Shown here: positions 29,340 to 38,530 of the stretch, piece by piece
How the letters are laid out: each line of letters begins with the position of its first letter
Numbering within the stretch: position 1 is the first letter of the stretch
Source of the DNA: Pelomonas sp. Root1217
GTDB lineage: Bacteria > Pseudomonadota > Gammaproteobacteria > Burkholderiales > Burkholderiaceae_C
Assembly: GCF_001425705.1 (NCBI RefSeq)
Contig: NZ_LMDC01000012.1
Span: forward strand, 412,148 to 476,147
Direction of reading: 5' to 3'
DNA length: 64,000 nucleotides
Notes under the pieces: generated by a model
What the model saw: only the letters and a program-made list of their open reading frames with translations
What the model was told of the DNA's origin: nothing
Database searches by the model: none
Made by a program: the position numbers and the translations under genes

Positions 29340-29840
29340 ATGACAAACCCACTGACCCACTTTGATGCCCAGGGCCAGGCCCACATGGTGGATGTGTCGG
29401 CAAAGGCCGAGACCCACCGCGTCGCGGTCGCGGCCGGCGAAATCCGCATGCAGCCGGCGACCTTCGCATTGATCGCCAGCGGCACGGCCCGAAAGGGCGA
29501 CGTGCTCGGCGTGGCGCGCATCGCCGCCATCCAAGGCGCCAAGCGTTGTTCGGACCTCGTGCCGCTGTGCCACCCGTTGCCCGTCACGCGCGTCAAGATC
29601 GAGTTCGATCTCGACGAAGCCGGCAGCCGCGTGCTGTGCCGCGCCCAGGTCGAGACGCTGGGCCGCACCGGCGTCGAGATGGAAGCGCTGTGCGCCGTGC
29701 AAGTGGGCCTGCTGACCGTCTACGACATGTGCAAGGCGGCGGATCGGGGTATGGTCATCGGCAACGTGCGGGTGCTGGAGAAGCAGGGTGGCAAGAGCGG
29801 CGATTGGCGCGCCGCTGATTCTCCGGTTCCTTCAGCGTAG
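29340..29840 (+). CDS. moaC: MoaC, cyclic pyranopterin monophosphate synthase
   Basis: A 166-residue enzyme that converts the GTP-derived intermediate from MoaA into cyclic pyranopterin monophosphate, the first stable molybdopterin precursor. Family motifs are complete: ALIASGTARKGDVLGVARIA, LVPLCHPLPVT and GVEMEALCAVQVGLLTVYDMCKA, including the catalytic Lys/Asp region. The start at 29340 (MTNPLTHFD) is preferred to an in-frame codon 12 nt earlier. No other moa genes are near. The coding end overlaps the convergent pglL-type gene by 9 bp. Confidence 0.95.
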   Translation: MTNPLTHFDAQGQAHMVDVSAKAETHRVAVAAGEIRMQPATFALIASGTARKGDVLGVARIAAIQGAKRCSDLVPLCHPLPVTRVKIEFDLDEAGSRVLCRAQVETLGRTGVEMEALCAVQVGLLTVYDMCKAADRGMVIGNVRVLEKQGGKSGDWRAADSPVPSA

Positions 29841-31712
29841 CGTCCGCCAGTCGATGACGCCCGATGCCGGCTGGCATTGCGGCATGGTCGGTGCCGAGGC
29901 GGCGATCTCGCAGTTGGCGAACCAGTTGTCCCCGGTCGGGTTGCGGAACTCACGCAGGCGGTCGGCGAGGAAGCGCGCGCCCTCCAGGTCGCCGGTCTTC
30001 TCCAGTGACAGCGACCAGTGCATCAGCAACCGCGTGTCGATCAGGTTGAAGGCAGTTCGGCGTGCGGCGGCCAGAGCAAGCGGGCCGGGAGGTTGGCTGG
30101 TGGCCGCCGCATAGTCGGCCTGATGGCTGAAGAAAATCGAGCGCTGGCCGTTCGCGATGCGTTCGTTCAGCGGCACCGAGTCCTCGCTCGGCATGTAGAT
30201 GGCGACGACGCGTTGGTAGTCCAAAACCGCGAAGGCGCTGCCAGCGATCAGCAGGGCACCGATGACTTGCCAGGGCGCCGTAGCTGCCGACGTGGAAGGT
30301 GCATCGGCCGATAGCACGAGGCCGAGGGCGAAGCAGGCCGGCAGCAGGAAATAGGCATACCAGAGCGGGTACTCGACCAAGCTGTGCAGGGCGATGGCGA
30401 GCACGATCATCAAGGCGGCACGGCGCAAGGATGAGTCGTCGTCATGCGTCGACGGAGTGCGCCAGATTTCCCAGGCTCCCCATGCCAACAGCATGGCGCC
30501 CAGGATGGACCCATGCACTTCGAACTTCTTGAAAGCGCCGAAGGCCAGCGCCAGCAATACGACCGAAATCGACAGCGGCAGATAGCTTTCCCTGCCGAAG
30601 GCGGCGTGCCAGCCCTTCACAACGGCCCAGGCCAGCAACAACAACACGGCGCCGGCCCAGGGCAGACCCATCTCGACGGCCAGCTGCGACGCGATGTTGT
30701 GCGTGTGGTCGAAGAAGGCGATGGGCCGGTCCGGGAAGGGCGTCAGGCTCCATGCGAAGTTGAACTCGCCCCAGCCAACGCCCAGCAGCGGATTGGCCGT
30801 CGTCAGTGCCCAGGCGTCGCGCAGGATCGCCAGCCGTGACGGTGAGCCCGCACCCTCCGACAGCCGGGAGGCCGCACGGAAGGCATGGCCGCTTTCGGCC
30901 GACCACACAGACATGCCCCACCAGCTGACGCCCAGCATCAGCGGCGTGGCCAGCAGGCACAACCGCGCACTGCGCGACAACTTTCGATCCACCACGCCCC
31001 ACACGGCCAGCAGCGCGATGCCAGCGTAACCGGTGCGTGAGGCGCTGAGCACGACCGTGAAGACGAAGGCAAGCAGCAGTGGCGCCAGTGCCATCCGCCA
31101 GCCGCGCTTCTCGGTGATGAAGACAGCGGCGATGGACGACCACATCATCAGGCTGGCCAGGTGGTTGGGTTGGCGCAGGTTGCCCACCGCGCTGCCGACC
31201 ACGCCGGAGCGTGCGATGAAGGTGCCGTCGGCTGCCGCCGGCAGGAAGACCTGCACGATGCACACGACGACCGTCAGCAGGCCCGTGGCCAGCAGACCCC
31301 AGCAGAAAGCCTCGGCGGCGAGCAGGCGGGCCGAGGTCGACAACCCCTGGGCCACGAGCAGCACAGCCAGGCCGGCACCGATGATGGCCGTGGCGCCCAG
31401 CCCCAGCGACGGCGGCAGGCCGCGCCACACGACGGAACTCATGGGTGCCACCAGCAGCAGCGCCAGCGCCATGGCGGCGGGGCTCTTCAGGCCGGCGCGC
31501 CAGCCCGGCGTGGACCGGGCCCACAACAGCAGCGCCAGGCCCCAGCCAGCGAGGGCGAGCAACTGGTTGTAGAGGGTGGCTGCCGGCGTCTGGTTGAAGG
31601 CGAGGAGGGGGGGCAGAGCGGCGGCGAGGAAGAGGCCGGAATTCGCGGCCGCAGCGGTGTGGTGAGGTGTCGCGGATGACATGGGCGCGGATGATGGCAC
31701 GGGCACGGGCAT
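29832..31712 (-). CDS. PglL/Wzy-type O-oligosaccharyltransferase, probably for the pilin
   Basis: A 626-residue inner-membrane protein with about a dozen helices. The segment GNLRQPNHLASLMMW is the hallmark of PglL/TfpO-type O-oligosaccharyltransferases, and the large periplasmic loop contains GVGWGEFNFAWSL and DHTHNIASQLAVEMG, typical of the Wzy_C superfamily. A soluble C-terminal part (about 500-626) follows the last helix. It should move a lipid-linked glycan onto Ser/Thr of the pilin encoded four genes upstream. The start at 31712 lies 32 bp after the preceding stop; an ATG at 31682 is also possible. It is the last gene of the pilA operon. It could instead be an O-antigen ligase, but the QPNH motif and pilA linkage favour pilin glycosylation. 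Confidence 0.85.
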   Translation of the reverse strand: MPVPVPSSAPMSSATPHHTAAAANSGLFLAAALPPLLAFNQTPAATLYNQLLALAGWGLALLLWARSTPGWRAGLKSPAAMALALLLVAPMSSVVWRGLPPSLGLGATAIIGAGLAVLLVAQGLSTSARLLAAEAFCWGLLATGLLTVVVCIVQVFLPAAADGTFIARSGVVGSAVGNLRQPNHLASLMMWSSIAAVFITEKRGWRMALAPLLLAFVFTVVLSASRTGYAGIALLAVWGVVDRKLSRSARLCLLATPLMLGVSWWGMSVWSAESGHAFRAASRLSEGAGSPSRLAILRDAWALTTANPLLGVGWGEFNFAWSLTPFPDRPIAFFDHTHNIASQLAVEMGLPWAGAVLLLLAWAVVKGWHAAFGRESYLPLSISVVLLALAFGAFKKFEVHGSILGAMLLAWGAWEIWRTPSTHDDDSSLRRAALMIVLAIALHSLVEYPLWYAYFLLPACFALGLVLSADAPSTSAATAPWQVIGALLIAGSAFAVLDYQRVVAIYMPSEDSVPLNERIANGQRSIFFSHQADYAAATSQPPGPLALAAARRTAFNLIDTRLLMHWSLSLEKTGDLEGARFLADRLREFRNPTGDNWFANCEIAASAPTMPQCQPASGVIDWRTLR

Positions 31713-31744
31713 GTCCAAGGCCTGGCGTTCGGGGGCGCAGGCGC

Positions 31745-37697: not shown

Positions 37698-37744
37698 TGC
37701 GACCAGGCCGCCAGCGACCCAGAGGTCGGTCCAGTTTCGCCGCT

Positions 37745-38530
37745 TCAGAGCTGCATCTCCTGCCCCGCCTCCAGCGCGCTGATCCGATGCGGGCTGTTCA
37801 AGCTTTGCACGCCCTGCATGACGGCTTCGACCTCGCCCGGCTTGATGTGGGTGATACGCACGTCAACGCTGCCGGCCAGATGCGTCAATTCGCGGCCCAA
37901 CTCCGCCGGGTGAAGATGCTGGCTGACGTGGGCGACCTCGGCCTCGTCGTCGCTGAAGGCGGTCTCGATGACGAGATGGGACAGGCGCAGGCCAGCCAGG
38001 CGCTGCCAGAGCGCCGGATTGGGGCCGGTATCACCGGTGAAGACCCAATGGGCATGGTCGCTCTCTACGCCAGCATCGACGGCGAAGCCGACGGCCGGCA
38101 CGGTGTGGGCTGCCGGCAGCACTTCGATGAAGCGGCCGCCCAGGTCGATGCGGTCGCCGATCTGGAAGGGATGCAGGCTGAGCACTGGCGCCTCGCGGCT
38201 GGGCAGGACGGTGAAATCGGGCCAGATCACGCCGTTGAAGATGTGCTGGCGCAGGGCGGCCAGCGTCTCGGGCAGGCCGTGGACCCGGATGGGCGGACGG
38301 CCTGTTGCGGCGCGCAGGCGCAGCACCGCGTCAGCCAGCAACGGGATGCCAAGCACATGATCCAGATGGGAATGGCTGAGCAGGATGTGATCGACGGCGG
38401 CCAGGGCATCCAGCGGCAGGTCACCCACGCCGGTACCGGCGTCGATGAGGACATCGTCGTCCAGCAGGAAGGCAGTGGTCTTGTAGCCGGCGGCAATGGC
38501 GCCGGAGCAGCCCAGGACGCGGATGTTCAT
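37745..38530 (-). CDS. MBL-fold hydrolase, cyclic-nucleotide phosphodiesterase class II-like
   Basis: A 261-residue cytoplasmic metallo-beta-lactamase-fold protein. The metal motif is SHSHLDH (His53, His55, Asp57, His58), with later ligands in AAHTVP and VFTGDTGPN. The N-terminal VLGCSGAIAAGYKTTAFLLDD and C-terminal ITHIKPGEVEAV segments resemble class II 3',5'-cyclic-nucleotide phosphodiesterases. If so, it would lower cAMP or cGMP; other MBL hydrolase functions are possible. It is 165 bp downstream of the FHA gene and abuts the third phosphoethanolamine-transferase-like gene, linking signalling to the pilus region. Confidence 0.75.
   Translation of the reverse strand: MNIRVLGCSGAIAAGYKTTAFLLDDDVLIDAGTGVGDLPLDALAAVDHILLSHSHLDHVLGIPLLADAVLRLRAATGRPPIRVHGLPETLAALRQHIFNGVIWPDFTVLPSREAPVLSLHPFQIGDRIDLGGRFIEVLPAAHTVPAVGFAVDAGVESDHAHWVFTGDTGPNPALWQRLAGLRLSHLVIETAFSDDEAEVAHVSQHLHPAELGRELTHLAGSVDVRITHIKPGEVEAVMQGVQSLNSPHRISALEAGQEMQL

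Follow-up and report, generated by a model that had tools for sequence, protein, structure and literature searches.

Why does a single type IV pilin gene sit among three EptA-like phospho-form transferase genes and a PglL-type O-oligosaccharyltransferase (ligase)? This arrangement was found in a 64 kb stretch of the 6.65 Mb genome of Pelomonas sp. Root1217 (the window, meaning the whole stretch examined), at positions 412148-476147 of contig C12. Here, we propose that it is a pilin cassette, in which three EptA-fold enzymes, termed E1, E2 and E3, and the ligase likely decorate the product of pilA, the only PF00114 pilin of this genome, with phospho-groups and a glycan. This is based on gene order, on the catalytic residues and kinship of the enzymes, and on comparison with related genomes. 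The whole genome holds five PF00884 matches, three of them at the pilA locus, and one PF11846 ligase; that three of five PF00884 genes should fall inside 6 kb by chance has, in rough arithmetic, a probability of about 2 in 100,000. Below, G-labels denote genomes and L-labels denote loci.

The cassette and its three transferases

The minus strand carries, in order, an MBL-fold gene, E1, pilA, E2, E3 and the ligase, after which moaC lies on the plus strand:

37745..38530, minus strand: MBL-fold gene (PF12706), conserved left flank of the slot
36036..37697 (frame open to 37748), minus strand: E1, EptA-like phospho-form transferase (PF00884, E 1.5e-48)
35948..35962, minus strand: sigma-54 type -24/-12 site, TGGCAC-N5-CTGC, which agrees with the consensus in 9 of 10 letters and lies 62 nt upstream of the pilA start
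35415..35900, minus strand: pilA, type IV major pilin of 161 aa with the tail KNNAATGT (PF07963, N_methyl; PF00114, Pilin)
35356..35378, minus strand: GC-rich hairpin between pilA and E2, a predicted attenuator, matched by 2% of 60 dinucleotide shuffles
33516..35351, minus strand: E2, EptA-like phospho-form transferase (PF00884, E 7.4e-51)
31745..33475, minus strand: E3, EptA-like phospho-form transferase (PF00884, E 1.3e-36, scored on the longer frame 31745-33655)
29832..31712, minus strand: PglL-type O-oligosaccharyltransferase (Wzy_C, Wzy_C_2 and PglL_A; QPNHLA and FDHTHN motifs)
29328..29840, plus strand: moaC (PF01967), conserved right flank of the slot

Two EptA-like genes and the ligase thus follow pilA on one strand, with gaps of 63 bp (pilA to E2), 40 bp (E2 to E3) and 32 bp (E3 to ligase), and a spacing of 135 bp separates the end of the third EptA-like gene, E1, from the start of pilA. 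These gaps leave no room for an accessory gene of the TfpX, TfpY or TfpZ type, and the cassette in the window contains none. The ligase exceeds its Pfam cut-offs, with 34.1 bits (cut-off 25) and 55.3 bits (cut-off 31.7), and carries both PglL_A and Wzy_C motifs.

An original prediction, made from this DNA, had described the same layout and had further claimed that all three enzymes keep a metal Glu and an aligned Thr nucleophile and lack the Cys set of lipid A EptA, all of which our analysis bears out. By alignment, these residues are Glu210 and Thr250 in E1, Glu282 and Thr321 in E2, and Glu240 and Thr279 in E3 (E294 and T333 if E3 is numbered from an upstream start), and an Asp-His pair is present in each enzyme. 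The Glu, Thr and Asp-His positions align with those of E. coli EptA, EptB, EptC and OpgE. In our alignments A2 and A3 the Glu, the Thr and the DHGE motif are invariant, and Ser replaces Thr in two distant E2 relatives, P0057 and P0116. E1, E2 and E3 contain 3, 5 and 3 Cys residues, respectively, versus 13 in E. coli EptA. EptA-fold enzymes have an N-terminal membrane domain of about five helices, and a simple hydropathy scan found 2, 3 and 4 strong N-terminal segments in the three enzymes. The closest relative of E1, at 96% identity, is from Roseateles sp. P5_E4.

In a tree of 74 catalytic domains, the window enzymes (win_E2, win_E1 and win_E3) fall within starred sets of 13, 13 and 10 rows, respectively, which do not overlap and each of which includes orthologs of other organisms. 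The broader sets of hits are less clear-cut: those retrieved with E2 split in two, two of those retrieved with E3 separate from the others, and those retrieved with E1 remain united at a support of 79/91. Because E1, E2 and E3 belong to separate clades, they are not recent copies of one another, and a recent tandem duplication is ruled out. Their tree positions also rule out, by kinship, an identity as lipid A or osmoregulated periplasmic glucan enzymes: in a comparison with EptA and OpgE, which had been suggested as a check, and with EptB, E1-E3 group with none of them. OpgE pairs with YhbX, away from E1-E3, on two long branches whose join is possibly false. The best solved-structure match is the same for all three enzymes, 5zzu, with a chain named EptC, followed by 5fgn and 4kav, which we take to be neisserial EptA chains. 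Among NCBIfam models, those of the EptC/CptA type score best for E1-E3.

A variable slot between an MBL-fold gene and moaC

Is this set of genes a constant feature of the genus? We compared 20 genomes, namely that of the window and 19 relatives. The ligase is present in 20/20, and in 16 of the 19 relatives the stretch from pilin to ligase is flanked by both the MBL-fold gene and moaC; in the remaining three, the contig stops too early. What lies between these flanks varies. The commonest cargo (11/20) is a flavin adenine dinucleotide (FAD) enzyme together with a large membrane protein, which has no Pfam match and appears GT-C-like by eye; the FAD enzyme is PRK07208-like in L067 (11331-15191), with the other 10 loci assigned by similarity to L067. 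By analogy with TfpW in Pseudomonas, this pair could possibly perform sugar chemistry for the pilin. A second ligase is found in 4/20 genomes (with Wzy_C confirmed in two and two assigned by eye), including G155, whose contig ends before the pilin, and G167, which is split over contigs. There is no cargo in 2/20 (G160 and G163), E1 only, before pilA, in 1/20 (G157), and E2 only in 1/20 (G153, where an opposite-strand PF01564 gene lies between E2 and the ligase). E1, E2 and E3 occur together in 1/20, the window genome, and 17/20 have the ligase but no EptA-like gene in the slot. A triple operon fixed in the genus is thus ruled out, and the gene set of the window is one of several that occupy a variable cassette site.

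The sister genome G030 marks the borders of this site. It matches the window at 94.2% DNA identity over 25308-29807 and at 94.5% over 37745-41525, the left border of the match being exactly the MBL stop codon. Between the flanks, the ligase (84-86%) and the first 127 bp of pilA (91%) match at the DNA level and nothing else does; the two pilins are 50% identical and the G030 cargo is unrelated. At the level of the family, we sampled 79 PF11846 loci, a subset of the PF11846 matches; L126 (a 10-base filler) was left out. Both the MBL-fold gene and moaC are found at 40 of these loci, a TfpX/TfpZ-like gene lies somewhere in the stretch at 22 (the TfpZ of L084 scoring above its NCBIfam cut-off), a second ligase type at 4, and an EptA-like gene at 2. 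Separately, glycosyltransferase- and methyltransferase-like genes, assigned by eye, lie between the ligase and moaC in G161 and G150 (L201:12537-17662, L208:12625-19162).

Do the EptA-like enzymes nonetheless keep company with pilins elsewhere? E2 orthologs are found immediately behind a pilin gene in G153, G111, G611, G758 and G759, and more distant ones in G565, G429 and G467. G157 has an E1 ortholog between the MBL-fold gene and the pilin, and G046 has a distant E1-like gene at the corresponding position. In a family survey of 399 genomes (E2 relatives at E < 1e-69), 10/399 genomes, counting that of the window, have an E2 relative; it is at a pilin in G111, G611, G758, G759 and G565, the locus is cut by a contig end in G652, and that of G557 falls outside the sample. 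In an order survey, also of 399 genomes (E2 relatives at E < 1e-60), the count is 15/399, again with the window genome, and G429 and G467 have the gene behind a pilin. A contig search with E2 across genomes found just two distant loci, in Saccharibacteria. With E1 and E3 as queries against the 399 order genomes (at most three candidates per genome scored), nothing but the E2-type group was found at E 1e-38, and E1 and E3 seem rare in the order. That an E2-E3 pair exists elsewhere is suggested by an equal length of the longest contig, 9271 bases, listed for both E2 ortholog P0003 and E3 ortholog P0245.

A survey of co-occurrence with pilA had been proposed along with the original prediction, and its outcome is divided: E1 and E2 orthologs do recur at pilins in other species and genera, but the triple set is not fixed and the site is variable. 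The idea of a dedicated pilin-decoration module therefore survives in so far as the three diverged enzymes are pilin-linked and belong to separate clades, and has to be revised in that they represent one state of a variable cassette site.

Expression, target and alternative readings

How would such a cassette be read? A sigma-54 type site with at least 8 consensus letters precedes 30 of 31 pilins, versus 1.18 expected from mononucleotide shuffles, and lies 56 to 105 nt ahead of the inferred pilin start. A GC-rich hairpin stands behind the pilin gene in 28/31 cases at 5% or better versus dinucleotide shuffles (2% in the window). Both counts retain the third pilin of L219, which has neither site nor hairpin. 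From the sites before and the hairpins after the pilins, we predict that the pilA promoter also serves E2, E3 and the ligase, by way of an attenuator: the sigma-54 promoter would drive pilA, most transcripts would end at the hairpin behind it, and a fraction would continue through E2, E3 and the ligase, so that little of the modifiers would be produced relative to pilin. Transcription of E1 probably occurs together with that of the upstream MBL-fold gene, because its frame opens at the MBL stop codon without an ATG and because the E1 start of G157 is 5 nt downstream of the MBL stop codon. In the window, the likeliest E1 start is a CTG that overlaps the MBL stop codon, with an AGGAG resembling a ribosome site upstream (37697-37760, by eye).

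As judged from family membership, the Thr of each EptA-fold enzyme would first accept the head group of a phospholipid (phosphoethanolamine, phosphoglycerol or a similar group), which would then be transferred, on the periplasmic side, to a Ser/Thr hydroxyl of the membrane-held pilin, and the ligase would add a lipid-linked glycan. The presence of three enzymes could reflect three donors, three sites or an order of action. For E2, the acceptor would most likely be in the Ala/Ser/Thr/Gly tail of the pilin. Pilin tails in cassettes with E2 are richer in these residues, with 0.62 versus 0.38 (11 versus 19 rows); per locus the values are 0.65 with E2 and 0.38 without (9 versus 18 loci, p 0.0015, a value uncorrected for kinship and from a test chosen after looking). 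The single G046 row was dropped from the tail test. The tail as the E2 target is plausible because N. meningitidis PptA modifies C-terminal serines of PilE, according to the available portion of PMC10434233.

Several findings weigh against the proposed cassette or parts of it. The tails of G565 (0.3) and G611 (0.4) are exceptions to the E2 tail rule, and a value of 0.6 is reached at three loci that lack E2. E1 is not part of the predicted pilA operon, since it lies directly behind the MBL-fold gene and ahead of the sigma-54 site; the suggestion that a triple set is wired into pilA transcription would hold for E2, E3 and the ligase, which stand behind the sigma-54 site and the hairpin, but not for E1. 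A general terminator scan of the region gave 2 sites, fewer than the shuffle mean of 5.8, and hence the argument for the hairpin rests on its position and recurrence; no sigma-70 promoter was found in the region by the same scan. All three enzymes score below the NCBIfam cut-offs, with 167, 211 and 153 bits versus 404 for NF007933 (EptC/CptA). E. coli EptC, an enzyme of the lipopolysaccharide (LPS) core, is nested with weak support in the wider E2 side of the tree. Finally, no pilin was found in the 6 kb covered for the E2-like gene of G022 and G558, and in at least 7 order genomes the neighbours of an E2-like gene are, as judged by eye, fusA, tuf or ribosomal-protein genes.

The chief rival explanation is that E1-E3 decorate the glycan transferred by the ligase, and not the pilin protein, placing different phospho-groups on one sugar chain. 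EptC, OpgE and their kin act on sugars, and the nearest solved structure bears the name EptC. In G153, G111, G611 and G758 the ligase shares the slot with the pilin and E2 (the G759 contig ends at E2). However, the pilin-E2 pairs of G429 and G467 have no match to the window ligase or the second ligase types in the 20 kb covered, although one could lie elsewhere in the genome, and in G565 the gene next after E2 encodes a transketolase. These three pilin-E2 loci without an adjoining ligase favour the pilin over the glycan as target. Moreover, most members of the genus that carry this ligase have no EptA-like gene in the slot. We thus consider a glycan target unlikely.

Another option is that E1-E3 modify LPS or lipid A and came to lie beside pilA by an accident of a recombination-prone site. 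Consistent with this are the superfamily that they share with EptA and EptC, the weak nesting of EptC on the E2 side and the E2-like enzymes away from pilins in other families. We regard it as quite improbable, given that this genome has a separate EptA-type enzyme, its fourth PF00884 enzyme (C1), which has 10 Cys and groups with E. coli EptA (the fifth PF00884 protein is encoded on C30), and that the E1 and E2 orthologs at pilins occupy fixed places, E1 before the pilin gene and E2 directly behind it. That the enzymes are hitchhiking cargo with no pilus role would agree with cargo differing between close species and is very improbable, with frames and catalytic residues intact across diverged orthologs and the same site recurrently holding other surface-decoration-type enzymes such as the second ligase.

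If the pilin is indeed the target, what might the slot itself be for? That relatives carry different cargo points to selection for variation of the pilus surface, exerted for example by pilus-binding phages. We tentatively extend this to a broader idea, about which we are more doubtful than confident, of a Burkholderiales docking site at which decoration chemistries are swapped together with the pilin by recombination in the conserved flanks. These chemistries would comprise glycan ligases, pairs of FAD enzyme and membrane protein, TfpX/Z accessories, and one to three phospho-form transferases, with the present species stacking three phospho-form chemistries and a glycan on one pilin.

Known systems and minor features of related loci

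Pilin-PglL linkage, phospho-forms of pilin and a variable pilin cassette in Pseudomonas are already known. E1-E3 are of the same superfamily as the neisserial enzymes PptA and PptB, the latter a phosphoglycerol transferase. PptA adds phosphoethanolamine or phosphocholine to pilin serines, and the phosphocholine donor in Neisseria is still open (PMC10434233, PMC4010543, in the portions available). Unlike PptA, which a published tree places near EptB, E1-E3 score best with EptC/CptA models. The same portions of PMC10434233 and PMC4010543 contain no mention of a linkage between pptA and pilE.

The accessible text of PMC11841053 describes cassettes of Pseudomonas aeruginosa in which pilA is accompanied by the accessory genes for TfpO, TfpW, TfpX, TfpY and TfpZ. 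A terminator between pilA and the accessory genes is thought to attenuate them, and such a terminator is found behind pilin genes in Pseudomonas and other species; the cargo is strain-specific, and some of it glycosylates the pilin. Likewise, our locus has a hairpin between pilA and the accessory genes (with termination predicted from sequence), its cargo differs among close relatives at a fixed site, and TfpX/TfpZ-like genes are found in the same region in other genera. Unlike those cassettes, the window carries three EptA-fold enzymes and a PglL-type ligase in place of TfpX/Y/Z, one cargo enzyme (E1) precedes pilA, and the site lies between the MBL-fold gene and moaC.

In a 2013 survey of PglL enzymes, 21 of 31 candidates lay beside type IV pilin genes or in close association with them, as the portion available reports (PMC3643930), and our ligase resembles them in its motifs and its pilin-gene neighbourhood. 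As far as that portion goes, the main text of the survey does not mention phosphoethanolamine, sulfatase, eptA or alkaline phosphatase, and what is new here is the presence of EptA-fold genes between the pilin and ligase genes. Our search of the open-licence literature found no report of EptA-like genes tied to pilA, of EptA-fold cassette cargo (up to three enzymes) or of the MBL-moaC slot, in keeping with the original remark that no such triple set was known.

It is from Neisseria that phospho-forms of pilin are best known. At the present locus, the enzymes are encoded next to their likely target, fall into three separable clades, and are single or absent in relatives with the same ligase. 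Relatives with one enzyme or none thus make a natural control set, in which pilin masses could assign one group to each enzyme. Comparing pilin masses across species could also test for a swapping of surface chemistry, possibly driven by phages.

Some further features of these loci deserve mention. A G7 run in E2 (35177-35183) and a C7 run in the ligase (31607-31613) are the sole G/C runs of at least 7 in the window. Neisseria pptA switches through such a homopolymer tract. Relatives have no runs at the positions of the G7 and C7 of the window, and overall there are 5 G/C runs in 96 kb of slots versus 4 in 156 kb outside; phase variation of E2 and the ligase is a weak possibility. The E2-like enzymes on the ribosomal, fusA or tuf side (L177, L178, L180, L184, L185, L186 and L189) apparently represent a group that is conserved in a different family of the order and is not tied to pilins. 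In G759, tandem pilin genes precede E2 (L219:1352-3413). In several families, E2-like genes are followed, almost without gaps, by genes for a major facilitator superfamily (MFS)-half membrane protein and a spermidine-synthase-like protein; in two cases the group directly follows a pilin gene. These loci are L181:8957-12894, L179:7216-10774, L195:8981-12746, L222:784-3083 and L207:8999-10906, with PF01564 found in L181, L195 and L207 (on the opposite strand in L207), the assignment in L179 made by eye, and L222 having the MFS half only. It is conceivable that a partner enzyme methylates or aminopropylates the transferred group.

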